This document shows positions 7,950 to 22,792 of a DNA stretch of 23,360 bases, one piece after another. The position numbers and the translations under genes were made by a program. Below the pieces are notes generated by a model. That model saw only the letters and a program-made list of their open reading frames with translations, was not told the origin of the DNA and searched no databases. How positions within the stretch are numbered: position 1 is the stretch's first letter; each line of letters opens with the position of its first letter. This DNA comes from a virus, in the IMG/VR virus record IMGVR_UViG_3300036832_000500, positions 1-23,360 of that record, one strand, 5' to 3'.

Positions 7950-9748
7950 CGAAGGATCTCTTGATCCTGTCCACGGTCGTATTGAAGGCGAAATTGTACT
8001 AAAACTGCATAGACTCGCAACTGGTTCACGAGATCCGGCGGCCATAGTACGTTTAGCCTGTTGGGGTTATTAGGATCTCTTTCCACAATAAGGTGGTCTT
8101 TGAAGGCCTGCGCGTTTTCAACGAGGCCATTAAACTCGTCAATCGCATATTGCGCCACGAGCTCAGCCTTGACGATCTTCGGGGTGACGATCTTCTGGCC
8201 GACACCGAACCTCGTTCCATCGTCCGCCAGTTTCGCGCGCGGGAATTTGTTGGTAATGACCGCGCGCTGATTGCGGATGATCGCCGCCAACGTGCTCATG
8301 GTCGTTACTAACTCATACGCATCGTCACTCTGCCCATAGAGATTGAGTTGATAGGTCGTCGTATCGCGCATGATCATCGGCTGACCATCGGACCCACGTT
8401 TCTGCGTCGCGATGCCCACACCGGAGAGGCTATTGAGCTCCGGTAGGATGAACGTGTCCTCCGGTTGCGCGCCGAGGATCTTGTTGAGCGACAAGGTTTG
8501 CAACGGCCGAGCCGGGTCGTTGGTCAGCGCGCGCGCAGCTTTCGCGGCGTAGGCCGCGGCCCATTCATAGACCGGTGATGGTGCAGTCATCTCAACGCTC
8601 ATCACCGACGTCGGGCCGAAGTTACGCGTCTCGCCCCAGGTGATAAAGTCCTCATAAAGGGCTCGCTTGGCACAGTAGAGTCCGCCGTAAAGCTGACGCA
8701 TCCATCCCCAGCGGCCGGTATCGGTGAAGCCCCATTCCTGCTCGAAGTCGAAAAGGGTATTCGAGTCGGTATGAGACAGGGCGACATATTCATATTCATG
8801 TTCGCCGAGGTTTGAGATCAGTACCGTGAAGTCCGGCACGCCGGCGCCGCCGGTCAGCATACCGGTCGCCGGCAAGGTGATGCCGAGTCCGGGCGGAAGC
8901 TCTTGGCCGCCCTGCTTGCCGTAGTAGTTAAGCTGCACGGTGAGATCGTTGCCGTTGACGCCCGGTGTTTTCGAAGTGATGGTAACGACGCCGGCCGCGG
9001 GCGTCGCGATAACAGGAAGTGCAGGAAGATCATTGATAGCCGCGGCCAGAGCGCCGGCAAGCGTGCTCGGCGTATCGGTCGTACCGCAAACGATGGTCAC
9101 GACATGGCCGGCGATGTAGACATATAACTGACCCGCGTCGGTCGGCGCCGCAGTGAACGTGATGGTGCCGTGCGCGGCTACCGATCCGCCGAGCGGCAGC
9201 ACTGGTGCGCCCCAGATCTCATGGGCGAAATTGTTAGAGAACGCCGCGGCAAACATGCACGCGAGGGTCGATCCCTGACCGTACTGGCGATCTGCGTCGG
9301 CCTGCGTTCCGATCGGCTTCGGAATGTTCGGCACCGCGACGCCAGCCGTGACGCCGGCCGGCAGCGTCGTGCTCGTCCATGTCAGGGTGAAAGTCGCGCC
9401 GGTGCCGACGCCGCTGGTCGAGACCTGCGCCACCGGGTTCGTCGGCGGCGTGGCTGTGGCCAGCATGTTCCCCGGATTCGTGATGGTCGTGGTCGCGACC
9501 GCTCCCGCGGTGACAGTCACGACTGTGAGCACGACGCTGTCTGGCAAGATGATCTGATCGCCCACGAGATAACCGGTGCCGGCACCGGCCACCACGGCCG
9601 TGGCGACGTGCTGGGTTGCCGCGATCATTGGCCCGACAACCAAGATCGGCTGGCGGATGATAGGCAAGCCCGCCATCGACGGGTCGATTTCCGCCCAGAA
9701 CAATGGCATGCGCCATTCGGCCGGAATATTGTCAAAGCTGATAGGCAT
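7946..9748 (-). CDS. Contractile tail sheath protein (Mu gpL-like)
   Basis: A 600-residue protein whose N-terminus (MPISFDNIPAEWRMPLFWAE) is characteristic of Mu-type sheath proteins. The C-terminus carries the usual late-sheath features: EYVALSHTDSN, GETRNFGPTSVMS and a final RLNVLWPPDLVNQL segment followed by AVLVQFRLQY. It polymerises around the tail tube and contracts to drive it through the envelope. Residues about 50-135 are a Gly/Thr/Val-rich stretch (GAGTGYLVGDQI ... GTGATFTLTW) that is not part of the conserved sheath core and looks like an inserted beta-sandwich surface domain. This would explain a length greater than the roughly 495 residues of Mu gpL. AGGAG lies 7 to 8 bases before the ATG. 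The stop overlaps the HNH start. Confidence 0.92.
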   Translation of the reverse strand: MPISFDNIPAEWRMPLFWAEIDPSMAGLPIIRQPILVVGPMIAATQHVATAVVAGAGTGYLVGDQIILPDSVVLTVVTVTAGAVATTTITNPGNMLATATPPTNPVAQVSTSGVGTGATFTLTWTSTTLPAGVTAGVAVPNIPKPIGTQADADRQYGQGSTLACMFAAAFSNNFAHEIWGAPVLPLGGSVAAHGTITFTAAPTDAGQLYVYIAGHVVTIVCGTTDTPSTLAGALAAAINDLPALPVIATPAAGVVTITSKTPGVNGNDLTVQLNYYGKQGGQELPPGLGITLPATGMLTGGAGVPDFTVLISNLGEHEYEYVALSHTDSNTLFDFEQEWGFTDTGRWGWMRQLYGGLYCAKRALYEDFITWGETRNFGPTSVMSVEMTAPSPVYEWAAAYAAKAARALTNDPARPLQTLSLNKILGAQPEDTFILPELNSLSGVGIATQKRGSDGQPMIMRDTTTYQLNLYGQSDDAYELVTTMSTLAAIIRNQRAVITNKFPRAKLADDGTRFGVGQKIVTPKIVKAELVAQYAIDEFNGLVENAQAFKDHLIVERDPNNPNRLNVLWPPDLVNQLRVYAVLVQFRLQYDRGQDQEILR

Positions 9749-9758
9749 GGTTTGTCTC

Positions 9759-10112
9759 CTACTTGCTCTTTGGTTTTAGCTCGGCGCGAGCTTCGGCCTT
9801 GGGTTCTGGTCGCTCGGGCTTGAATTCCCGCTTGGGGAACATGGCCGCGGCCTCTTTTCCGCCGGGCACATCTTCGTCGATAGTTATCGAACCGGTGAGC
9901 AATCGGCGTTTGGTGAATTGATCGAACGGCCATTCCACCGATTGATTGATGTCGGGCAGAAAGCCGACGCGCGTGATGCCGTGTTTCATGCGGCGCTTTA
10001 ACGCGTTGGTAGCCGCACGCACGCGGACATGACTCGGACGCGTGAGCTCTGGGTCGACCCGACGCGCTTGGCCGGCCATCGGAACGAGGCCTCTCTGTAC
10101 GATATCGATCAT
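9759..10112 (-). CDS. Small head-tail/tail protein, DUF2635-like position
   Basis: A 117-residue protein starting MIDIVQRGLVPMAGQARR at an ATG (10110-10112) that overlaps the upstream stop as ATGA. A longer in-frame ORF extends to 10718, but that extension only shadows the tail-terminator gene. The body is basic (HVRVRAATNALKRRMKHG); the middle has a WPFDQFTKRRLLTGSI segment, and the C-terminus is rich in Lys, Pro and Glu. Mu-like phages carry a small DUF2635 protein immediately before the sheath gene, with a similar W-x-RR-x2-DGD-like core, so the same role is plausible but the match is loose. Function of DUF2635 is unknown. Confidence 0.72.
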   Translation of the reverse strand: MIDIVQRGLVPMAGQARRVDPELTRPSHVRVRAATNALKRRMKHGITRVGFLPDINQSVEWPFDQFTKRRLLTGSITIDEDVPGGKEAAAMFPKREFKPERPEPKAEARAELKPKSK

Positions 10113-11017
10113 GATGTCGGCTCCTGTGTGAACGTGAAGTTTTGCACGCCGGTCATGGCGCTTTGTTGCATTGGGATCACGCTGATTAGAACGCTGGTCG
10201 TGTCGACGAGAACGCCTTGCACGGTCCAGGTCACACCGGCGGCCGTGATCTGATCGCCGTATTTGAGGGTCGCAAGAAATGTGCTGTTGTCTTGCGCCGC
10301 TTGTCCGACCTTGGCGATGCGCATCAAGTCGAGATTGTCTTGCGGATGGGTGATAAATCCATCCGTTGGGATGACCGTCGTGGCCGGGTTCGAATAGGAA
10401 TAGCTGAGCGTCGTAACGATCGGCGTCGGGATGGTCTCGATCTCCCATTCCGCGCCGACCTGTATCCGCGCCGGATCTTCCGGCCACGGATAGACCGCCT
10501 TGAAGCGCGTCGAGGCAAGGTTGTCGGTGACATTCGGCGGGAAGCGTGTGCCATAGCTGACCGACCAGGTCATTTGCATCTCGAGCACCGGCGTTCCGTT
10601 GTCGCGTCCGATGTTTCCCGGGTTGTGATCGCAATCGCCCTCGGTGACCGCCTCGATCGTCACGCCATCGGGGAATTTCTGCCATCCGGGGATCGTGAGA
10701 TAATTCATGATTGCCCAATGGCCGGCGTCGGCGTTCTCCTCGGCGAGCTCGGGATCGTTGTTAGCCACGATGTAGGAAAAGCCGAGTTTGAGATGATGCT
10801 TGAAATGCGGATCGGTCAGATTGTTGGCGCCATCCTCGTGGAAACGCTCGCCCATGTAATAGACGCCGAGATAAGGCAGGTGTTCCTCGCGGATTGGTTT
10901 TGCGGTCGTGCGGCTAAACTTGGCGCATCCCGTGAACGGCGAGAGGGTTTTAAGCCGCGCGAGGAGCTCGTCACGGATGCGAAAGCCGAACGAATTGATA
11001 CCGACGACCGAAGTCAC
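10109..11017 (-). CDS. Probable tail terminator / tail completion protein
   Basis: A 302-residue protein beginning with a GTG that overlaps the upstream stop (GTGA). Residues 1-120 follow the pattern of phage tail terminators: an IRDELLARL helix, EEHLPYLGVYY, a FKHHLKLGFSYIV strand, then helices (AGHWAIMNYL). Such proteins form a ring at the top of the tail and stop its growth. Residues 200-302 look like an added beta-rich domain (GDQITAAGVTWTVQGVLV). Most terminators are 130-200 residues, so this one carries a C-terminal extension. Position between head-joining genes and the sheath supports the call; sequence similarity alone is only suggestive. Confidence 0.65.
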   Translation of the reverse strand: MTSVVGINSFGFRIRDELLARLKTLSPFTGCAKFSRTTAKPIREEHLPYLGVYYMGERFHEDGANNLTDPHFKHHLKLGFSYIVANNDPELAEENADAGHWAIMNYLTIPGWQKFPDGVTIEAVTEGDCDHNPGNIGRDNGTPVLEMQMTWSVSYGTRFPPNVTDNLASTRFKAVYPWPEDPARIQVGAEWEIETIPTPIVTTLSYSYSNPATTVIPTDGFITHPQDNLDLMRIAKVGQAAQDNSTFLATLKYGDQITAAGVTWTVQGVLVDTTSVLISVIPMQQSAMTGVQNFTFTQEPTS

Positions 11018-11379
11018 GGTTTCGCCGCCACGTTTCTTTTGAGCGTGATGTTCATCATGCCGCCGGCATTACCGACACCGGAGAGATCTTGAACAAAGAA
11101 GCTGCCGCCGGCGATGCTCTGGTCGGGCGGGATATCAACCTGATCGCCTTGCATTGGCATGATCGGGAATTCGGCGATCAGGATATCGATGAAAGGCTTG
11201 TCATCGGAATACATGCCACCGTCTTCGGTCAGCACGTCCGTTGATTTCGTATCGAAATAGGCGCGTCCGCCATAGGCCGGCTGTCCCGGCTGTGAAACCA
11301 GCGGCGTGACCGTGATCGGCCGCGCCCACGTGTCCCAGTTCGGCGAGTAGATCTGATCGTGGAAATTAAAGATCGCCAC
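11014..11379 (-). CDS. Probable head-tail joining protein (head closure)
   Basis: A 121-residue beta-rich protein (GTG start at 11377-11379, AAGGA 8 bases upstream). It begins MAIFNFHDQIYSPNW and has a DKPFIDILIAEFPIMPMQGD segment followed by an IPPDQSIAGGSFFVQDLSG segment, reminiscent of small head-closure proteins that resemble lambda gpFII or gp16-type adaptors. It contains no catalytic motif, signal peptide or membrane segment. Position between the gp10-like gene and the tail terminator supports a joining role. A call from position and fold impression only. Confidence 0.6.
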   Translation of the reverse strand: MAIFNFHDQIYSPNWDTWARPITVTPLVSQPGQPAYGGRAYFDTKSTDVLTEDGGMYSDDKPFIDILIAEFPIMPMQGDQVDIPPDQSIAGGSFFVQDLSGVGNAGGMMNITLKRNVAAKP

Positions 11380-12760: not shown

Positions 12761-13956
12761 CTTGTCTCGATTTGGAATTGTTCGAATAAGCCGCGCAATT
12801 CTATGGCCGGCCCCGGCTTTCCGTTCGACATGATGGGCGTCGCGAGATAGCGGGCGCGATCGACTTGCCAACTCGTGATCACCGGGGCATCGGCGCCGCG
12901 CTCACCGGCGAGACCGCGCTCGCCGCGCGGCCCCGCGGGCCCGGCCTCGCCCGGCTTGCCTTTGCGGGCCTGGACGAGGGATTGCCAACCCTCCCCCGGA
13001 CATGGCCCGGGGGCGTCCTGCTTGGCGATGAACGTCCCGCCGTTAAGGGCGACGATATCGAGCTCGAGATAATCCGCCTCGGCCTGCCATATTCCGCGCA
13101 CGCGCGGAGAGTGGGCATCGCAGCCACGCGCCGCAAGCGATATCCATTCGGCGCTCGGTGGCGTATGCGCGGTATCGCGGAGCGCCTGCCACAATCCGCC
13201 GGCGTGGGTGACGATGTTGCCGGCGTAGTGCACGGTCCCGGGCGTGAAGGCGCGCGCGATTGGCATCGTCCCCATGGGCCCCTGCTCGCCCCGCGGGCCG
13301 ACCACGGTCTCGCCGGCGGACCCCGGGGGCCCGGGAGGGCCGATTACGGTCTCTCCGGCGAGGCCTTGTGGGCCCGGAGGGCCGGGAGAGCCCGGAGGAC
13401 CGCTATCACCACGCGGGCCAGCATCGCCGCGTTCGCCGGCGGGGCCTTGCTCGCCGGGCTCGCCTTTGGCACCTTGTTCGCCTTTCTCGCCTTTTTCTCC
13501 GGAGATGCCATGTTCGCCTTGTTCACCGCGCGCACCCTGCGCGCCATCCTTGCCGAAATCTCCGACATCACCCTTTTCGCCCTTCTCTCCCTGGGTGCCT
13601 GGGTCGCCCTTTTCACCTTTCTCGCCGCGCTCGCCCACTGAGCCTTGCGGGCCGGTTGGCCCGGCCTCGCCGCTATGGAGCTCGGCCACGCGCGCATCGA
13701 TCCGCGCCATCATGACGGCGATCGCCTCGCGCGTCTGCGCGCTCTCCACGGCACGCAATTCGATGGCTGCGGTGCGCAGATTGGCAATCGTGGCCTCGGC
13801 CTGCGCCGCGATCAGTTCGCGATCGCGCCGGCACGCCTCGCGCATGATCGCGACGACTTGGCCGCACGCCTCGCGCAACTCACTGAGAAGTTGCTGCGGG
13901 TCGTCGATCGTATCGGTCGGCGGCATCGAGAATGCTTCGAGTGTGCCGTCTGACAT
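12757..13956 (-). CDS. Collagen-like virion protein with repeated carbohydrate-binding-like modules
   Basis: 399 residues from the ATG 13954-13956, which overlaps the portal 3' end by 77 bases. Residues 20-95 form a helical, probable coiled-coil trimerisation region. Residues 96-230 are Gly-X-Y collagen repeats rich in GEKGEKGD and GPPG, with a duplicated GETV(I/V)GP interruption. Residues 241-345 hold two related modules of the type ending in W-x-S-L ([27 protein letters not shown]), similar to chitin-binding-3/CBM5-12 modules. A second short Gly-X-Y stretch (341-366) and a short C-terminal domain follow. Phage collagen-like proteins are usually fibres; here the gene sits in the head module right after the portal, so a head or neck decoration fibre binding surface sugars is plausible. 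The much longer ORF upstream of this ATG is a portal shadow. Confidence 0.85.
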
Positions 13957-15346
13957 TGAGCTCGCTACTCTTGCCGTTACCGGCCGCGGTTGGCGGTTGT
14001 TTCGGCGGTTGGAAATTGGGCGCCGGCGCCTCGGGCGCGGCGTGCGCGGCGGGCGCCGCGTGCGGCGTAGGGGCCGACGGGATCCCGGATGCCGCCTCGA
14101 GCGGTACGACCTGGGCCTGCACGCGCGGCGAGTCACCGAAAGGAACGTTCTCGTAACCCTCGAGATTTCTGGCCTCATTGGGCGCGAGGATGCCGCCTTG
14201 CACGGCGCGAGCGAGACCTTCGATCCGGCCTTTGAATGCCGAGCGCAGCAACGCCGCGGTGTCGAATTCGACGTATTCGTCGGGCTGGCCTTTGAGTTGG
14301 AACAGCAAGCCAAAAGCTTGTTCCACGTGTTCGAGCGTGAAGCCTAGGCCACTCGCGATCCAGCTTTGCATGAGGAGCTCGGTCGAGGCATATGAATGCG
14401 CGTGGCCGACACCGAGCACTTGCAGCGGGACGCGGAAGGCGAGCGCGATCTTCTCGTCGCTCAATTTCATGATCTCGGCGATCTGCGTATCCTTCGCCGC
14501 CATTGACCACGGTTGCACCTTGATGCCATGCGTCAGAATCGGCACGCCGCCCGGGCCGCAACCGCCGAGATTCTTGGCTTGCTCATTCCATTGCTGGCGG
14601 AGCTCCTCGACTTTATCGCGATTGAGCGTTAGATCGGTTGAGAGCACCGCCGAGGGCCGCGCCTGGTTGATATAGAATTGCATCTGTTGTTGCGTCATCG
14701 CCTGGGTCATGGCGAGCTCGCCCATCGCTGCCATCAACGGCGATTCACCGCGCAGCGGATAGGGATACATCCGCGAGGCGTGCAGACGGATATGCAACAC
14801 GTCACGCGCCGGCACGAATAGCGCTGCCTCTTGTGCGATCTGATTGCTGATCACGTAATTGCCGGCGAGCTTGTAGAAGATCTCTCCGCCCGCCACGATC
14901 TGCGGAAAGCTTTGCCTGGAGTCCATAAGGTGCAATTCGCTGACCTCGAACCGATCGTTGCGCAATGCCAGCGCATATGCGTTGCCGTCGAGGTAAAGCC
15001 ACCGCACTACGTTCAAGAGAAAATTGGAGATGGACTCATATTCGTTTGGCTTGCGCAGAATGCGTGACAGCGCCGATGTCGTGACGCGATCGCGGCCGCC
15101 TTTGTCGTTGCTGCGCCAATGGTCCCCCGGCAGCATCGACACGGTTTGAGAATACGCACTGACGCAGGCCTCGACCATTGCCGATTGGCTCGAAGTACTT
15201 TGCAGGTCATAGCCTTGCTGCCACCAATTGAACGCCGCGCCGTCGGGGAGCCAACCGCCGCTTATCGGGAGCCAATATGGTCCCGGGCGATAAGCCCCCT
15301 CGACTGCCTTGCGCACCCAATCGGTGACGCGCGTCAGTGCGCCCAT
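13880..15346 (-). CDS. Portal protein (HK97 family)
   Basis: 488 residues starting [17 protein letters not shown]. Family features are clear: an N-terminal [19 protein letters not shown] segment, a [13 protein letters not shown] segment, an [14 protein letters not shown] segment, an [20 protein letters not shown] segment, a [14 protein letters not shown] segment and an [23 protein letters not shown] segment. Twelve copies form the ring at the capsid vertex through which DNA enters and leaves. The C-terminus is Pro/Ala-rich and overlaps the collagen-like gene. An upstream ATG at 15430 would add 28 basic residues that only shadow the previous gene; the ATG at 15344-15346 comes one base after that gene's stop, so I prefer it although its ribosome site is weak. 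Confidence 0.92.
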
Positions 15347-15347
15347 G

Positions 15348-15551
15348 TCATTCGCGCTTGGCTGCTGGCGTGGCTGCGCGGGTCTGATAGGCGGCTGTCG
15401 GCTTTTTGGCCTCGGCCTGCTTTTTGGCAAGCGTGCCGCCGACGGCCTGTCCTTCGTCTTCCGGGCTTCCGTCCGGCTCTTTGTCCATCACGTGCTCGCC
15501 CATTGCGGCCGCGTCGTTCTCGGCCTGTGTCGGCGTCGGCTTACCTGCCAT
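15348..15551 (-). CDS. Small acidic/Ala-rich hypothetical protein before the portal
   Basis: 67 residues, MAGKPTPTQAENDAAAMGEH onward, with an acidic Glu/Asp/Pro middle (DKEPDGSPEDEG) and a Lys/Ala-rich end; probably disordered. It has one of the best ribosome sites in the window: GGAGGA 5 bases before the ATG. Its stop is one base before the portal start, so it may serve to couple portal translation. No family recognised; small disordered proteins here can be scaffold- or portal-associated. Confidence 0.7.
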   Translation of the reverse strand: MAGKPTPTQAENDAAAMGEHVMDKEPDGSPEDEGQAVGGTLAKKQAEAKKPTAAYQTRAATPAAKRE

Positions 15552-15625: not shown

Positions 15626-17929
15626 TTACGACCAGGTGACATTCTGCGTCCACGCGACCGTGCCAGCACGTCGGATTAGCCAATTGAGCGGCATGACCAT
15701 TCTTAGGCCGATGCTATCGGTCTGCCAGAGCGAGCGCTGTGGCGAAGCCACCACCGCCGGCGAACCTGATGCAAGATCCGTCGGCGCCGTATCCTCCATA
15801 TGCAAGGTCGCCTGGTCACTAAGCTCCATACGTATTGAATCGCCACCGACACTAACAAAGTCCGCGGCGTCAATAAGTATCATGGTTTTAACCGGAACCG
15901 TCGACGACTTAATAACCGGAATGGTATTAAGTGTGCCGCGTTCTAGTTCGTCACGGAACAGGAATTGACCGAAGTTTGGTCCCGTGATCAGCGACGCTCC
16001 GAGCACGTCGGTCGGATTGAGCAGCCACGCCGGCGCGCGAACATTGCCATAGAGACTTGTCGTCAATGCGCCTTGCAGCGCCTTGATGTCGCCGACGATG
16101 GCCGCGAAGCCGCCACCGGCAGTTGCCGTCAACGCCGCAACGCCGTTGAGCAAGCCGGCAGGCCGCACCGCGGTCGCCGGATTGGCATCGAGCAAGACGC
16201 TGTCGACTGCGACGCTGGTGTCCTGCTGGATCGCCTCGCGGATAAGTCCCTCGATCGCCGGCGTCGAGTGCTCCTCCATCTCCCTGGTAAAGACGCTGAT
16301 CACGGCCACCTTTTTCGGGACCAACGTTTGCGAGGTAAATGCGCCCTGCCGCACGGGAATAGCATTACCTTCACCGACGAATGAGCCGGCTATCGTCGGC
16401 GTCCTCGAGCGTGTCGGAATAACGATTTTCGCGGCTTGGCCAAAGCTAAGAGAAAGCCCTTTAGCCGAGAGCGGGAGAAACACCGATGTCGGCATTAACA
16501 GCGGCATGAGATCCGCATATTTCTGTTGCGCGAGTTCCTGCGCCCATCCTGCCACGGTCGTCATTGCCGGCGCCGAGGCGGCTTTCATAACGATGTCGGT
16601 GACGACTTTTGTCATCTCGTCATCGCCGTAGATCCGCTGGCGGACTTCGTCGAGCGGTCGGCCCCATTCTTTCGACCGCACCGCGGCCGTGCCTGCACGC
16701 ACGAGATACTCGAGCGGGGCGAGCTCTTTTCTACGGCCGACGATTACCGCAGGTGAGGCGATAGTGGCGCCGCCGCCGCCATTCGCCGCCACCGTCACCG
16801 TGGCCGGGAGATTGCGCCGCCCATTGTTGCCGTCGTCGTCCAGGAGAGCTCGGCGTGCGAGCCGCTTTTCCGATTCGACCAACGTTTCGTGCAGCGCTTC
16901 ATGCTGCGCGATTTTGGCGTTGAGCTCTCTGGTTTTCTGCATATCGGCATCGCTGACATTGTCGTCATTGATGTGTTCGAGATGCGCATCCAATTCGTCG
17001 CTATAAGCGACGATCTTGGTTTGCACATCGGCAATACGTTGTGAGAGCGACATGGCGCCCCCCTTTCCGTTGTGAGGTGTCTTGCCGTGCTTGGCAGTGA
17101 AAGCCCGTTGCTTTTCGGTCTTGCTTCTGGCGCCGTGCTTGGCAAAGCAGAGATCGATTGTCTCCGGGGAAACGTGGAGCGATTTTGCAATCGCGAGAGC
17201 GTTGGCGTTGGCCGGTACTGCGACGAGCGACGTCTCGACTAACTCTTGCTCGAGAAAGCGAGCGCCGCCCCATGGATCTTTCTCGTCGAGCGGCTCGTGC
17301 TTGATCGGTTTGAAGCCGACCGAAACCGCTTTGAGAATTCCGGCCTCGACGAGTTTAATAATTTCGTCGATGCGTGCGCTCGTCCCTTTGGGCGCGAGCA
17401 CGAGATCACCGACCAAAGCTTTATCTTGGACGCGCAGGTTACGCCACTTACCTATCGGGAAATTCGCAGTGTGATTAAACAAAGCTATGGGGTTTTTCAG
17501 GAACGAGTCGAGGCGCCAACCATCTGACATGATGACGTCGCCCATGCGGTCGATGCTTTCGTCAGAGAGCACGAATGCGGCGCCGTCGTGCGCACCTTCA
17601 TGCGTCTTATGCACGAGGCTGGTCGGGCTGGGCCCGCGCAGCTTGCGATTTTCCCAGGCCGTTTCGCAGGCCGTTTCAGCAGCGTCGTCGTCCATGCCCT
17701 GTTCCGTAAGGTCGGATTGACAACGGTCCATGAATTCTTCTTCGCTCTCGTCATCTTCGGGCGCAATGTCGATTTGCTTCGGTTTCGAACCGCCGTGTGC
17801 TTGCCGCCAGATGTCGAGACAAATGGCAACAGCTTGTTCCTGATCACGCTTGCCGTCGCCCATCATCTCGGGGACGCAACGCGAGCTGAAGTCCGACTGA
17901 CTTTCGCCTTTGTGCGGGGCCATCGGCAT
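15626..17929 (-). CDS. Prohead protease / major capsid protein fusion (HK97 type)
   Basis: 767 residues. Residues 5-97 hold two copies of a short module (ES-x3-F-x2-RC ... C-x3-W). Residues 100-250 are the HK97-type prohead serine protease: candidate catalytic His153 (LFNHTANFPIG), Ser203 (AVSVGFKP) and an acidic residue in the ELVETSLVAVPANANA motif. Residues 293-365 are a helical, scaffold-like delta region, and residues 370-767 are the HK97-fold capsid protein (ASAPAMTTVAGWAQELA ... EGNAIPVRQ ... ending VAWTQNVTWS). The protein assembles the head, then cleaves itself. AGGAGG lies 5 bases before the ATG. An internal AAAGGGGGG sits 4 bases before Met293, so a free capsid protein of 475 residues may also be made. 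The capsid half is clearly paralogous to the 352-residue protein at 19879-20937. Confidence 0.94.
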   Translation of the reverse strand: MPMAPHKGESQSDFSSRCVPEMMGDGKRDQEQAVAICLDIWRQAHGGSKPKQIDIAPEDDESEEEFMDRCQSDLTEQGMDDDAAETACETAWENRKLRGPSPTSLVHKTHEGAHDGAAFVLSDESIDRMGDVIMSDGWRLDSFLKNPIALFNHTANFPIGKWRNLRVQDKALVGDLVLAPKGTSARIDEIIKLVEAGILKAVSVGFKPIKHEPLDEKDPWGGARFLEQELVETSLVAVPANANALAIAKSLHVSPETIDLCFAKHGARSKTEKQRAFTAKHGKTPHNGKGGAMSLSQRIADVQTKIVAYSDELDAHLEHINDDNVSDADMQKTRELNAKIAQHEALHETLVESEKRLARRALLDDDGNNGRRNLPATVTVAANGGGGATIASPAVIVGRRKELAPLEYLVRAGTAAVRSKEWGRPLDEVRQRIYGDDEMTKVVTDIVMKAASAPAMTTVAGWAQELAQQKYADLMPLLMPTSVFLPLSAKGLSLSFGQAAKIVIPTRSRTPTIAGSFVGEGNAIPVRQGAFTSQTLVPKKVAVISVFTREMEEHSTPAIEGLIREAIQQDTSVAVDSVLLDANPATAVRPAGLLNGVAALTATAGGGFAAIVGDIKALQGALTTSLYGNVRAPAWLLNPTDVLGASLITGPNFGQFLFRDELERGTLNTIPVIKSSTVPVKTMILIDAADFVSVGGDSIRMELSDQATLHMEDTAPTDLASGSPAVVASPQRSLWQTDSIGLRMVMPLNWLIRRAGTVAWTQNVTWS
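17054..17068 (-). promoter_or_regulatory. Internal ribosome-binding site inside the protease-capsid fusion
   Basis: GGAAAGGGGGG (17058-17068) stands 4 bases before the ATG of Met293 (17051-17053), which begins MSLSQRIADVQTKI, exactly at the start of the helical delta region. Use of this start would release extra capsid protein without protease, solving the stoichiometry problem of a one-to-one fusion. Confidence 0.55.
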
Positions 17930-17958: not shown

Positions 17959-18165
17959 TCATCTGCTCCGTCGACGCACATACTGCCGATTGCGTGCCGG
18001 CAGTTCGAGCCCAGTGCGATAGACCACGTGGCGCAGATGGTGCGAGATCGAATGCAGCAACTCGCTGTCGTAACTTGAACGCGAACGCACCCGCTCGCGC
18101 AGAGCGCAGAAATCACACCACGCGTGATAGGCGTGGCGATGGATGCAGAAATAGTTATCCGTCAC
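17959..18165 (-). CDS. Small Cys/His-rich protein (possible zinc-binding)
   Basis: 68 residues from a GTG at 18163-18165, with AAGGA 9 bases upstream formed partly by the stop of the methyltransferase gene. Its N-terminus (NYFCIHRHAYHAWCDFC) holds Cys7, His9, His11, His14, Cys17 and Cys20, a likely zinc site. The C-terminal half is very basic with several His and Arg. It fills most of the gap between the methyltransferase and the protease-capsid fusion. A competing frame at 17844-18116 overlaps the fusion gene and lacks a ribosome site. No family recognised; it could be a small nucleic-acid or protein-binding factor of the head cassette. Confidence 0.62.
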   Translation of the reverse strand: MTDNYFCIHRHAYHAWCDFCALRERVRSRSSYDSELLHSISHHLRHVVYRTGLELPARNRQYVRRRSR

Positions 18166-18177
18166 GGCGCTCGGTCC

Positions 18178-18699
18178 TTATTCGATGACGACACAATGCT
18201 GTTCGGCGGCCCGGCTATCATCGCGATATTTCACTTCTCGCAGCGTGATCCAATGATCGAACGCGGCTTGTTCGTGTTCGGTCACGATCCAGAATTCGTC
18301 CATAACGATTACGGTACCGGGGATGATGCGCGGCGTGAGCGCCTCGAGCACGGTCATGGTCGAGGCATAGAGATCGCAGTCGATGTGGATCAGTGCTGCG
18401 TCGCCGTGATGCGTCGCAAGAAATTGCGGCAGCGTTTGCGCGAACAGACCAACGATAAGCTCGACGTTGTCCGGCACAGTTGGCGGCGTGCACGCAAACT
18501 CGCCAGCGGGATAGTTGCCCCATGGTTCGGCGAGGCCTTTGAAACTGTCGAAGCCGTAGACCTTGCGCGGGGAGAGCTCATTTGCCAGCACCCGGATGGT
18601 GCCTCCGGTGGCGACGCCGAATTCCAGGATCAGCCCCTCGGGAGCCGCCAGCACGCTTGCGCGTTTGAGGATCTCAATTCGGTCGCGCAATCTGAGCAA
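18178..18699 (-). CDS. SAM-dependent methyltransferase, TylF/MycF-like
   Basis: 173 residues. Class I methyltransferase features: SAM loop LILEFGVATGGTIRVLA (Glu26 to Gly33), VYGFDSFKGLAEPWG (Asp51), then ALIHIDCDLYASTMTVLE (Asp107, Asp109) and PGTVIVMDEFW (Asp134). The latter two are the metal and sugar-hydroxyl handling motifs of TylF-type O-methyltransferases, which methylate sugar hydroxyls in macrolides and glycans. It is short for the family (usually 200-250) and begins at a TTG (18697-18699) or the TTG three codons later, inside the end of the glycosyltransferase gene, so the two are probably coupled. The likely substrate is a sugar made or attached by that neighbour. Family call strong, substrate inferred. 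Confidence 0.84.
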   Translation of the reverse strand: MLRLRDRIEILKRASVLAAPEGLILEFGVATGGTIRVLANELSPRKVYGFDSFKGLAEPWGNYPAGEFACTPPTVPDNVELIVGLFAQTLPQFLATHHGDAALIHIDCDLYASTMTVLEALTPRIIPGTVIVMDEFWIVTEHEQAAFDHWITLREVKYRDDSRAAEQHCVVIE

Positions 18700-19882
18700 A
18701 GGCGCTCGTCCAATCGCCGGCGGTTTGCTGGCGGCAAAAGTGGATGTTTTGATAAAGCGGCGATTGCCATCGCCAGCTATGCCAGTACGACAGCAAGGCG
18801 TGAATGCGGGGGTGGCCGATCGCGCCGGCGAGATGCAGCGCCGCGGTATCGACGGCGACGATCTCGTCGAGCACGGACATCAGCGCGGCGCAGTCGGCGA
18901 AATCTTGGAATTCGCAGGCCGCGACGCCAGCGGCGAGGGCTGCGTCGACGCCTTGCTGTTGCACGCTGTACAACTGGCCTCGGTCGGCAAGCTGCTCGAC
19001 GAACATGGCAAGCGGCGCCGCGCGCGGATAGTCGCCGTCGGCTTGCACCCCGACCGACCATGCGATGCCGATTGTTTTTTGCCCAGCATCGACACGATCG
19101 CGCCATTGGCTGCGCAATCCGGTCTCGACTTCGAGATAAGGCGCGAGCGGAATCTTGTCCGGCGATTGGCAAAAGAAGTGCAGGAGCAGAATCAGCGGGC
19201 AGAAATAATCGGCGTCGACGAAGTCACTGACGACGAGCCCGCATTGCATGCCGAGTTGGGCGAGCTCGAGCGGCATTTTCAGGATGACGTCGGCGCCCAT
19301 CGCTTTGAGCTGCGCGACGTAGCGCAGCGCCATGATGCTATCGCCGAAGCCGTGATCGTGGATCAGCAGCAAGCGCTTGCCGCGCAGATCCTCGCCCTGC
19401 CATGGTTGCATCCCGAGCTCGAGTGCCGCGCGATAATTCTTGCGCATGAAGATCGGCGACCGCTCGCCCTCGGCGTACTGCTCGAACCCCTCGACCCATT
19501 GCCCGAGCGAGAGCAAGATCTGCGCCCGGTTGCGCTTGGCGTAGGTGGTTGGCGCGATGCCGATTGCGTTGTCGATCTCGCGTAGCGCGCGGGCCGGCTC
19601 GTTGGCGCGATAGAGCGCAAGCGCGCGATTGAAGTGCGAGAGATAGTCATCGATCATGCCGTCGCGGCTCATTTCTTGCGGGATCGCATGATAGCCGACC
19701 GGGCGGCCATTGCGATTGACGCAAAGCCTGCCATCCGGGCGGCCACGGCCGCGCACGTCGAGCACTTCGCCGTCCGCGGTGAGACCGCGCCAACCCTGCG
19801 GCGTCGTTTCGCAGGCAACGACGGGCGCGAGCTCGAGCGCATCGAAGATTGCGAAATGCTCGCCGATCGGTTTGCTGGTCAT
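18674..19882 (-). CDS. TPR protein with GT9-like glycosyltransferase domain
   Basis: 402 residues from the ATG 19880-19882, which overlaps the small capsid gene's stop as ATGA. Residues 1-70 are beta-rich; 76-145 form TPR-like helices (HFNRALALYRANEPARALRE, then KRNRAQILLSLGQWVEGFEQY). Residues 168-372 match the GT-B fold of family 9 (heptosyltransferase-like) proteins that often follow TPRs: a LLLIHDHGFGDSIMALRYV nucleotide-fold start, PYLEVE, KTIGIAWSVG, DFADCAALMSVLDEIVAVDT, then AALHLAGAIG with the donor-site Asp345/His350 pattern, and a WRW near the end. It would transfer a sugar from a nucleotide-sugar donor; TPRs often select the protein acceptor. Its place between two capsid genes suggests a virion protein acceptor. 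Confidence 0.86.
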   Translation of the reverse strand: MTSKPIGEHFAIFDALELAPVVACETTPQGWRGLTADGEVLDVRGRGRPDGRLCVNRNGRPVGYHAIPQEMSRDGMIDDYLSHFNRALALYRANEPARALREIDNAIGIAPTTYAKRNRAQILLSLGQWVEGFEQYAEGERSPIFMRKNYRAALELGMQPWQGEDLRGKRLLLIHDHGFGDSIMALRYVAQLKAMGADVILKMPLELAQLGMQCGLVVSDFVDADYFCPLILLLHFFCQSPDKIPLAPYLEVETGLRSQWRDRVDAGQKTIGIAWSVGVQADGDYPRAAPLAMFVEQLADRGQLYSVQQQGVDAALAAGVAACEFQDFADCAALMSVLDEIVAVDTAALHLAGAIGHPRIHALLSYWHSWRWQSPLYQNIHFCRQQTAGDWTSAFAQIARPN

Positions 19883-20937
19883 TTCCATGTCGGCGTCAGC
19901 CAAGCCACCCCTTGCACGCTGCGCAACGCCCACGTTATTGGCCAGCGAACCTTAAGCGCGAGCGAGTCGGTTTGAAACATGCTTTTCTCGGCGGCGGTGC
20001 CGGCTGCGCCCGGGGCGGTGTCGTCCATGACTAAGGTCGCGGCAATGCCGGTCTCGATGTCAGGATTTGGTGACAGGGCTGCGACGAGCGCGGCCGGTGC
20101 GATCGCGCAGATGTCATTGCCAAGCGCCGTCGAGCCATAAACGTCGAGCAAGTCTGTCTGCTCAGCGCGCAACTCCAGCCCGAGCGCGCGCCCCGGTGAC
20201 GCGACGATGATATAGGGCCCAGGACCAGCAACCGGCGCAATTGCATTGATCAGCGTCGCGACGTCCTCGAATACCGCCTCGAAGGTATCGGTCGCACTCG
20301 ACGCCGTCTGCGCCACGATGCCGTTGCGGATCCCTGCCGGCCGCGCCGTAGTCGCGGCGTTGCTATCGAAGAATGCGGCATCGAGCGCGGCCCCCATCGC
20401 CCGCACGAGCGCGTCGCCGATCGCAGCCTCCGCATTCGAGGACGCCATCAGTTCACGAGTCAGCGCGGCAATCGCTGCCAGCTTGAAGGGATTCAATGCG
20501 GCGGCCGTCGACGCTAGTTGGCGCACCGGAATCGGTGTGCCCTCGGCAACGAATGACGCGTTGCCAGCGCCCACCGTGAAACCGGGAACGGAGATCTGTC
20601 CCACACCATCCATATTGAACAGCAACCCGCGACGGATCACCGTGGCCGCCGACGATGTCGGCGCCAGCGCCTCGGCCGCGTCCATGATGATTTTGTGCGC
20701 CAACTCTGCCGCCCAACCGACGACGCTGGTCATTGCCGGGGCCGACGCCGCGCGCACAATCAGATCGGACGGCCACAACCGTTGCGCAACCTCGGCCGCT
20801 GTCGTGCGCTGAATCTGCGCTAATGCCTGCGCCGTGATCAGCCGCCGGAAACTGTTGCCGGGCGGGAATTCGGGCTCACGTTGGAACGGTGACGGAGAGG
20901 GACTATTCGGCCGGTGGAATGATTCGAGCACGCTCAT
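19879..20937 (-). CDS. Second, smaller HK97-fold capsid protein (paralogue of the major capsid)
   Basis: 352 residues. It shares clear blocks with the capsid half of the fusion gene at 15626-17929: ASAPAMTSVVGWAAELAH, a GTPIPVRQ segment, an ALTRELM segment, a TARPAGIRNGI segment, a MDDTAPG segment and FQTDSLALKVRWPITWALR, finishing VAWLTPTWK. It lacks the protease and the helical delta region. It could form pentamers or a minor shell component, or act as a decoy or assembly regulator. I set the start at the ATG 20935-20937 because GGGAGGAGG lies 7 bases upstream and the ATG overlaps the previous stop as ATGA; a longer ORF to 20955 would start inside the ribosome site. Confidence 0.88.
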   Translation of the reverse strand: MSVLESFHRPNSPSPSPFQREPEFPPGNSFRRLITAQALAQIQRTTAAEVAQRLWPSDLIVRAASAPAMTSVVGWAAELAHKIIMDAAEALAPTSSAATVIRRGLLFNMDGVGQISVPGFTVGAGNASFVAEGTPIPVRQLASTAAALNPFKLAAIAALTRELMASSNAEAAIGDALVRAMGAALDAAFFDSNAATTARPAGIRNGIVAQTASSATDTFEAVFEDVATLINAIAPVAGPGPYIIVASPGRALGLELRAEQTDLLDVYGSTALGNDICAIAPAALVAALSPNPDIETGIAATLVMDDTAPGAAGTAAEKSMFQTDSLALKVRWPITWALRSVQGVAWLTPTWK

Positions 20938-21131
20938 GGGTTCGCCTCCTCCCAACCGCCGGGGTAGATGTAGAGCTCGCGAGTCGAGCGCGGGATCCGT
21001 TCCCCGTTTGCTACCTCAAAGGTAGTTGTGCCGCCGTCGATAGTGCGCACGATACCCTCGAACATTTTCGCATCGTCAGGGCAAAGCTTAAACTTAAAGT
21101 GCTCGCCTATGTGTAGTCGATACGGCTTCAT
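20934..21131 (-). CDS. Small hypothetical protein after the large terminase
   Basis: 65 residues, MKPYRLHIGEHFKFKLCPDD onward, starting at an ATG (21129-21131) that overlaps the large-terminase stop as ATGA and ending where the small capsid gene begins. The sequence looks like a compact beta-barrel (VRTIDGGTTTFEVANGERIP) without catalytic or membrane features. A tight overlap on both ends supports that it is real. It could be a head decoration or a small regulatory protein; I recognise no family. Confidence 0.7.
   Translation of the reverse strand: MKPYRLHIGEHFKFKLCPDDAKMFEGIVRTIDGGTTTFEVANGERIPRSTRELYIYPGGWEEANP
20945..20953 (-). promoter_or_regulatory. Strong ribosome-binding site of the small capsid gene
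   Basis: GGGAGGAGG on the minus strand, 7 bases before the ATG 20935-20937, decides the start of the small capsid gene and implies high expression, consistent with a structural protein made in quantity. Confidence 0.75.
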
Positions 21132-22792
21132 CCGATCAAGGCCTTAACATCGATGTCGGGCTCGGTGCGATCCTTGGAGCGCAACCCCATGCACATCGCC
21201 AGCGCCACCGCGCCGTCAATGCGACCCCGAGCTTTCTCTTTGTCGAGCTTGCGATTGCCCGCGGCGTCGGTGGTTGCCACCGCGTTCGCTAGATTCCAAT
21301 TGAGGCACGGGTTGTTGTCGTGCACCAGCTTGCCGTCATAGATCGCGTGCTCGAGGGCGTCGATCGCTGGCGCCATGCCTTTGAAGTTTTGCGGCCATGG
21401 CACCAGCCGAAGACCGTCGCCGCCCTTGCCTGCATCCTTGTAGGCCTGCAAACCGACAGCGTCGAATTCCCGTAGCAGATCGTCCATTCGCCACGGATCA
21501 TACGCCAGCGCACGAACTTGATACTGTTGACAGAGCTCGGCCACGCGCATCACGACGACCTTCGGATTGATGCTGCGGCCAGGCGAAACGAGGATGTGTC
21601 CGGCATCAGCCCAGTGCACATAACGCCGTTCGCCGGAACCAAAATCGCGATTGGAATGCGTGACGAGATGATCCTCGGGCTTCCAGAAATACGGCTTGAT
21701 GCGAATCGGCTCGTTGGCCGAGGCCATGATCAGCGCCGTCAGATCGACCACGCTCGAGAGATCGAGCGCGAGATAAACCTCCTCGCCATCTTCGAATCTC
21801 GCATCGCCGATGTGCGACATCCATTCAGCTCGCGAGATTAACGTCGATGTTGGAGAAATTCTTTGGTTCAAAAATAGGTTGCGGACTTTGGGTTCCTCGG
21901 CGGGCAATCTTTTGGCCATCCTCACCGCGGTTGCGAGATCCTCATAGTTGCGAAAATCCCCCAGCGCAGGGTTGGCCTTTTTCCATTGCTTTTCGTCGTC
22001 GAGATCGCAATCCTCGTCGGCACAATGCAAGTGGCAGACGATCGAGGGATCAGTCTTCGACAACCCGTCGTCGATCAGCTTGCTCAAAATGTGTTCGGGA
22101 TCATTGCTCTGGGTGCTGATCACGATGAACAGCGGCTCCTCGCGCGCGCCAAAACTCGTGTCGAGAACGTTGTAGAGATTTCGATTCTTAGCCTGCGCGA
22201 GCTCGTCAAAGATCGCGACGCTGGGCATGTAACCGTGCTTGGTGCCGGCTTCCGCAGAGATCGCGCGATAGATCGATCCCGTCGAGCGCACCAGCATCGT
22301 TTTGGTCGATGCAACGATCTCGATCTGCTCACGAAGCTCGGGCTCGAGCTCGACAATTTGCTTGGCAAATTTGAAAACGATAGCGGCCTGCTCACGGTCG
22401 TTCGCTGCCGAATAGATCTCGCCGTTAACGATCGCCTCGGGCCCGATCAAATGGGCGAGTGCAATCGTTGCAATCAATGCAGTCTTACCGTTCTTGCGCG
22501 CGATCGAGAGGATCGCCCGCCGCACCGCGCGCTTGTCCTCATCGGTGTGCGGCTCGTAAATGTCACGAATGAAAGATTTTTGCCACTTCGCAAGCTTGAA
22601 CCGCTCGCCCTGTCCTCGACCGCTCGGAACCGTGAGCAGTTCAATGAACCGAATAACGGCGTCAGCCCGCTCTTTGCCGCGCGCTGTCCGCCGAACCGGC
22701 GACGAGACCCTCGAACTTCCCCGCCGGCTTTTGCGCTTTGACGGTGCTGATCCGGGAGCGGGCGGCCGGGGTGAATCCAAACTCACTTGCAT
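21128..22792 (-). CDS. terL: Terminase large subunit
   Basis: 554 residues, the motor and nuclease that packages DNA into the head. Walker A-type ARKNGKTA lies near residues 98-105, Walker B VAIFDE near 192-197, and a coupling motif VISTQS near 225. The RNase H-like nuclease begins at VYLALDLSSVVD (Asp near 344), with further acidic residues at ALAYDPWRMDD (near 432) and RIDGAVALAMC at the end. This is the P27/HK97-type Terminase_1 family and its length is normal. The start at 22792 overlaps the small terminase by 131 bases; no other start codon lies between that region and the conserved ADAVIRFIELL segment, so the overlap seems genuine. Confidence 0.95.
   Translation of the reverse strand: MQVSLDSPRPPAPGSAPSKRKSRRGSSRVSSPVRRTARGKERADAVIRFIELLTVPSGRGQGERFKLAKWQKSFIRDIYEPHTDEDKRAVRRAILSIARKNGKTALIATIALAHLIGPEAIVNGEIYSAANDREQAAIVFKFAKQIVELEPELREQIEIVASTKTMLVRSTGSIYRAISAEAGTKHGYMPSVAIFDELAQAKNRNLYNVLDTSFGAREEPLFIVISTQSNDPEHILSKLIDDGLSKTDPSIVCHLHCADEDCDLDDEKQWKKANPALGDFRNYEDLATAVRMAKRLPAEEPKVRNLFLNQRISPTSTLISRAEWMSHIGDARFEDGEEVYLALDLSSVVDLTALIMASANEPIRIKPYFWKPEDHLVTHSNRDFGSGERRYVHWADAGHILVSPGRSINPKVVVMRVAELCQQYQVRALAYDPWRMDDLLREFDAVGLQAYKDAGKGGDGLRLVPWPQNFKGMAPAIDALEHAIYDGKLVHDNNPCLNWNLANAVATTDAAGNRKLDKEKARGRIDGAVALAMCMGLRSKDRTEPDIDVKALIG

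Follow-up and report, generated by a model that had tools for sequence, protein, structure and literature searches.

The window analyzed here, which is the whole of a 23,360-base IMG/VR record, carries between its two capsid genes a putative glycosyltransferase (GT) with predicted TPR and GT-B domains and a TylF-type O-methyltransferase (MT). The linkage of this GT to a capsid gene is a trait of the viral lineage to which the window belongs. Soil may be where this phage comes from, which is a guess based on the accompanying contigs. Judging from sequence, structural modeling, and analogy with known systems, we consider it fairly likely that a capsid protein is O-glycosylated in the cytoplasm during head assembly and that the added sugar is then O-methylated.

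A putative glycosyltransferase and a methyltransferase lie between two capsid genes

The main structural genes of the window are on the minus strand (Table 1), in the order terS, terL, a gene of 65 aa, cap1, GT, MT, a Cys/His-rich frame, a protease-capsid fusion, a gene of 67 aa, portal, a collagen-like gene, and tail genes including the sheath. No RNA families or tRNAs were found in the window. As for the capsid genes, the product of cap1 matches Pfam Phage_capsid (1.6e-10; 41.3 bits against a curated cut-off of 24.2) and the major head protein family phrog_617 (1.1e-19), and it is 52–67% identical to the cap1 of nine relatives. Its structure model, at a pLDDT of 36, is too low in confidence for judging an HK97 fold. 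The fusion matches Peptidase_S78 (3.5e-8), Phage_capsid (3.3e-12), and phrog_617 (2.9e-81), and the two capsid domains of the window are 32% identical. The lineage, as noted in the window and in L083, L090, L102, and L134, has two HK97-type capsid genes (three in some contigs), only one of which carries a protease. Related phages with a single capsid gene have no GT.

The coordinates bear out the original prediction that the GT and MT genes overlap each other and that the former overlaps the upstream capsid gene through an ATGA, by which translation of cap1 and GT may be coupled. Since the MT frame has no ATG start, one of two TTG codons presumably serves as its start. The gene order that had been predicted holds for GT, MT, and the protease-capsid fusion, but the Cys/His-rich frame is not part of the conserved cassette. 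We left it out because its only homologue found (59% identity) is elsewhere, upstream of terL in phage L159. This small gene, being in different places in two phages (17959-18165 in the window and L159:4988-5170), is probably mobile.

Table 1. Features of the head operon, in window coordinates
Feature	Position	Strand	Evidence or remark
Terminase large subunit	21128..22792	-	Pfam TerL_nuclease 1.3e-33; upstream boundary of head operon
cap1, protease-free second capsid gene (HK97-type)	19879..20955	-	Candidate acceptor; start TTG 20955 or ATG 20937
ATGA	19879..19882	-	cap1 stop (TGA at 19879) shares bases with GT ATG (19882-19880)
TPR/GT-B glycosyltransferase (GT), 402 aa	18674..19882	-	Weak Pfam matches, AlphaFold2 model, Foldseek, 91 viral homologues
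GT N-terminal five-strand beta domain, residues 21-66	19685..19822	-	Conserved E25, G30-W31-R32, T35, G38
GT TPR helices, residues 76-140	19463..19657	-	Pfam and model; putative acceptor-binding part
GT-B catalytic domain, residues 170-400	18683..19375	-	Model and Foldseek
GT motif H175-DHGFG-D181	19340..19360	-	Conservation 1.00 at H177, G178, G180, D181 and 0.97 at H175 (91 homologues)
GT C-terminal motif D345-TAALHLAGAIG-H357	18812..18850	-	97-100% conserved in 91 homologues, bar residue 349
Overlap of GT end and MT frame	18674..18699	-	26 bases with TTG 18699; 17 bases with alternative TTG 18690
TylF-type SAM-dependent O-methyltransferase (MT), 173 aa	18178..18699	-	Pfam TylF, PHROGs, PDB matches
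MT motif HIDCDLY	18367..18387	-	Partner D134-E135 at 18300-18295
Cys/His-rich frame, 68 aa	17959..18165	-	Open frame; no family match; outside conserved cassette
Prohead protease-major capsid fusion	15626..17929	-	Other candidate acceptor; closing gene of cassette
Portal protein	13880..15430	-	Pfam Phage_portal 1.2e-65; downstream head gene
Collagen-like gene	14313-12757		After portal

The GT is predicted to combine TPR helices with a GT-B catalytic domain

The Pfam matches of GT to TPR (8.5e-4) and GT9 (2.2e-3) both lie below the curated cut-offs, the Glyco_transf_9 score being 17.8 bits against a cut-off of 22 (21.4 for the L058 homologue), so that the original assignment was weak by itself. 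A direct sequence search of the PDB with GT returned nothing meaningful, and a search with its profile gave only non-significant TPR matches. The assignment is firmed up by the predicted fold and by conservation in the 91 homologues. In an AlphaFold2 model of good quality computed from 12 homologues (pLDDT 86.8, pTM 0.84), a five-strand N-terminal domain is followed by TPR helices and then by GT-B; the first of these may be an acceptor-binding part. Residues conserved at 97–100% among the viral homologues include H175, H177, G178, G180, D181, R187, W275, and R287, together with D345-T-A-A, H350, H357, and SWRW (369–372). The first of the two motifs in Table 1 stands at what we take to be the position of the N-terminal catalytic-Asp motif of GT9 enzymes, while the Pfam GT9 match comes from the second.

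When the model was compared with solved structures using Foldseek, the nearest folds were GT9 enzymes (3tov, 7e-6; 1psw, 1.5e-5) and TPR-bearing O-GlcNAc transferases (OGT; 5djs, 5.9e-4), with the protein heptosyltransferase TibC lower among the matches. GT shares the GT-B fold and GT9-like motifs with the GT9 heptosyltransferases and TibC, but superposes on them with a TM-score of only 0.37–0.44 by query length and has additional TPR and beta domains. O-GlcNAc transferases (family GT41) act on Ser/Thr of proteins. They also join TPR to GT-B and are among the best Foldseek E-values, but their superposition is weak (TM 0.2–0.3), the TPR of the phage GT is short, and no sequence similarity was found.

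Since LPS heptosyltransferases are among these closest GT9 folds, the pair might instead place a heptose-like sugar on LPS or capsule of the host, in receptor masking or superinfection exclusion, with MT capping it. TylF-type enzymes, too, are found in small-molecule and polysaccharide pathways. We nevertheless regard modification of the host surface as rather unlikely. A soluble, TPR-bearing GT has the architecture of protein O-glycosyltransferases such as OGT and FlmG, its gene is in the head operon with a stop-start overlap with a capsid gene, and no membrane or polymer-export gene was recognized among the neighbors scanned. Moreover, the viral homologues of GT adjoin capsid genes, rather than being confined to the company of host-surface genes.

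Two distinct types of methyltransferase serve the same place

The MT belongs clearly to the TylF family, with Pfam matches to TylF (PF05711; 3.7e-15, 56.3 bits against a curated cut-off of 23) and Methyltransf_24 (1.3e-12), and PHROGs matches to phrog_6608 (3.8e-39) and phrog_8858 (9.3e-29). Its sequence matches in the PDB include the TDP-rhamnose 3'-O-methyltransferase CalS11 (9.9e-8), MycF, and NovP. Profile and PDB matches to TylF, MycF, NovP, and CalS11 are significant and the DCDLY and DE motifs are kept, although MT is shorter (173 aa versus 250–280). The HIDCDLY motif is presumably the metal/catalytic region. H105, D107, D109, Y111, D134, and E135 do not vary among 10 MTs from the lineage or among 10 diverse MTs of viruses, so that the motifs of MT, like those of GT, are intact in homologues. 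The median dN/dS of the TylF-type MT is about 0.16.

An MT gene lies within 6 kb of GT in 62 of 91 loci, where it is of the TylF type and downstream in 11, and of a second type in the others (downstream in 42, upstream in 9). In most relatives this second type is at the place of MT, and in others it is upstream of cap1. It has a median dN/dS of 0.18 and is only 19–27% identical to the TylF type, which indicates that the MT role is filled by two distinct enzyme types. Methyltransf_24 matches all 45 MT members that were scanned, and TylF matches 10 of them. Methylation looks optional, no MT having been detected within 6 kb in the remaining 29 of 91 loci. On the interval from terL to the protease-capsid gene, MT is found only where GT is present (9/23 versus 0/15), and the two genes have been relocated together in L086/L088 and L146/L152.

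Phages also glycosylate DNA, and PHROGs weakly ties the second MT type to a family named DNA methyltransferase. GT could thus act on a modified base and MT in a DNA hypermodification pathway, which we deem highly improbable, since no base-modifying enzyme was recognized among the window genes scanned, the fold and TPR of GT match protein-directed enzymes, and the MT of the window matches sugar O-methyltransferases.

Linkage of GT to a capsid gene is a trait of the lineage

A search of other phages for the same gene order, proposed with the original prediction, found it in dozens of contigs. A search of viral contigs with cap1 found ten, and in each of them GT either follows cap1 directly or is separated from it by a single small gene. 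A profile search then yielded 134 GT relatives, corresponding to 91 distinct viral loci after dereplication at 95% nucleotide identity. In 78 of these cap1 is the direct upstream neighbor of GT, and in 4 it is further upstream; in 4 more, the nearest upstream match is p114, a small head-region gene. Recurring in dozens of distinct contigs, this order is not due to chance.

Could GT and MT merely be accessory genes that recombination has left in the head operon and that play no role in the virion? The gap before the protease-capsid gene also holds a highly variable 44-member family, which indicates that the region accepts insertions, and the clade includes at least one loss of GT (L187). However, GT stays in place, its catalytic residues are kept at a mean pairwise identity of 48%, it is under purifying selection (median dN/dS 0.18), and two unrelated MT types serve one place. 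Passive cargo is therefore a distinctly unlikely explanation.

Outside this lineage, a tblastn search of 50,697 GenBank phages with GT gave no match, and bacterial genomes contain only distant TPR-GT relatives, with up to 35% identity. One of these, in Acetobacter, stands in a flagellar locus with cheW on one side and flgH/flgA/rod genes on the other. When related prophages were sought in 385 genomes of the Acetobacter class, the matches were all weak and confined to the protease part. In a Methylophilaceae genome (L074), a TPR-TylF methyltransferase and a TPR-GT are adjacent (8381-9586 on the minus strand and 9665-11056 on the plus strand), a bacterial version of the pairing.

The two capsid proteins are the candidate acceptors

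Next, we considered which protein GT might modify, using 38 dereplicated loci retrieved without GT as a query. Of the 26 loci with cap1, 23 have GT, whereas none of the 12 without cap1 does (Fisher p 1.7e-7). The tree requires only two changes of GT, one gain and one loss (the latter in L187), so this p value is not independent evidence. Three GT-less lineages (L187, L197, and L198) have cap1, which shows that the second capsid does not need GT. Distances between GT sequences correlate with those of the protease-capsid fusion (Spearman 0.82) more than with those of cap1 (0.54) or portal (0.58), the bootstrap interval for the difference between the first two being 0.135–0.463. GT divergence thus tracks the protease-capsid more closely, which argues against cap1 as the sole partner. 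In cap1 we saw no Ser/Thr-rich tail that might serve as acceptor, and a contrast of GT-bearing with GT-less cap1 sequences, of which the latter supplied five rows, gave only weak candidates for acceptor Ser/Thr. We therefore retain both capsid proteins as candidates, other virion proteins being less likely.

The same chemistry might be directed at the collagen-like fibre, at the decoration-like p114, or at a tail protein, which we judge unlikely but by no means negligible. In L086/L088 the GT-MT pair is between p302 and the tail sheath gene, and PMC11600133 reports that mycobacteriophage enzymes act on the tail tube too. The collagen-like gene, for its part, comes after portal in all relatives for which sufficient sequence is available; however, it is found in 22/22 GT-less as well as 33/33 GT-bearing relatives and is therefore not specifically linked to GT. 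Its longest Gly-X-Y runs span 9 to 210 triplets among relatives. As for p114, the window and the majority of GT loci gave no match to it, and the position of GT directly downstream of cap1 in the great majority of loci also speaks against another acceptor. The original prediction, in which the phage decorates either its capsid or its collagen-like fibre with sugar, is thus supported in part: both enzymes are intact, under constraint, and linked to the head operon across a large phage lineage, and their closest functional precedents are protein O-glycosylation and phage capsid glycosylation, while the fibre shows no specific link to GT.

Proposed mechanism and comparison with known systems

The architecture that GT shares with FlmG, its relative in a flagellar locus, and the kinship of MT with enzymes of Che8 and cluster O phages make capsid O-glycosylation followed by O-methylation the best explanation. 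In this mechanism, the TPR part of GT, perhaps with the beta domain, would bind a newly made capsid subunit during head assembly, and the GT-B domain would transfer a sugar from a host nucleotide-sugar to Ser/Thr, translation from overlapping genes holding GT beside its substrate. A host origin of the donor is presumed because no sugar-nucleotide synthesis gene was recognized among the window genes scanned. MT would then O-methylate a hydroxyl of that sugar as a cap. The outcome would be a capsid bearing short glycans that are methylated in part and that probably shield the surface of the particle or tune its properties. It is we who infer that the acceptor is a protein, that this protein is the capsid, that MT acts on the sugar, and that the phage benefits.

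FlmG, the flagellin O-glycosyltransferase of Caulobacter, binds flagellin through a TPR domain that is joined to a GT-B domain (PMC7591256). Like the phage GT, it has an N-terminal TPR and a C-terminal GT-B in one soluble protein, and its acceptor is a self-assembling structural protein. However, FlmG is 596 aa long and uses pseudaminic acid, whereas the phage GT has few TPR helices and an extra beta domain; the likeness considered here is one of architecture.

Mycobacteriophages provide most of the documented cases in which phage enzymes glycosylate virions (PMC11600133, PMC11256854, and Freeman 2023 as cited there). The enzymes of cluster O reportedly act on both capsid and tail tube proteins (PMC11600133), and the Che8 capsid is reported to be glycosylated (PMC11256854). 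The nearest GenBank phage relatives of MT are part of Che8 gp108 and a cluster O O-methyltransferase, with 38–46% identity. Cluster O (Corndogvirus) and Che8 thus resemble the window in having phage-encoded GTs with a homologous O-methyltransferase. In cluster O the glycosylation genes are also in the head operon by protease and capsid, the order in phage Dylan being terL, portal, O-methyltransferase, three GTs, protease, and capsid; this structural linkage is absent in Che8. In contrast to the several GTs of the mycobacteriophages, the lineage of the window has one TPR/GT-B enzyme, as well as two capsid genes and a tail sheath.

Relative to known phage virion glycosylation, the enzyme class and the two capsid genes of the lineage are what differs here. 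We give about an even chance to the reading as a whole, namely, that a large dual-capsid, sheath-bearing lineage absent from GenBank phages runs FlmG/OGT-like capsid O-glycosylation with a TPR/GT-B class not found in the GenBank phages searched and with interchangeable sugar O-methyltransferases. If it is true, virion glycosylation would have arisen independently of the mycobacteriophage systems, and its conserved linkage to capsid genes across dozens of metagenomic contigs would make it a broader phenomenon, involving more than one enzyme class. Sugar-coated virions may then exist well beyond mycobacterial phages, and GT would be a compact TPR glycosyltransferase whose acceptor may be a protein in the course of assembly. 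The natural contrasts within the lineage (GT-less relatives, MT-less relatives, and swapped MT types) make the function directly testable.

Other genes and genomes of the lineage

Members of the variable 44-member family, found near GT/MT and before the protease-capsid gene (e.g., L058:10518-13493 and L144:2575-4254), have a repeated EPRDxxGKWTDGG-like motif that looks like a shared signal on differing cargo domains; they are possibly internal virion proteins. The p114 gene product, of 110–120 aa and with no family match found, recurs near capsid genes, including those of single-capsid relatives (L070:4012-4356, L071:4171-4512, and L163:3944-4300), and is a possible head decoration protein. 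Another single-capsid relative, L280 (IMGVR_UViG_2513237098_000002), is a 72-kb contig that might point to the host group, its IMG number resembling that of an isolate genome rather than of a metagenome.
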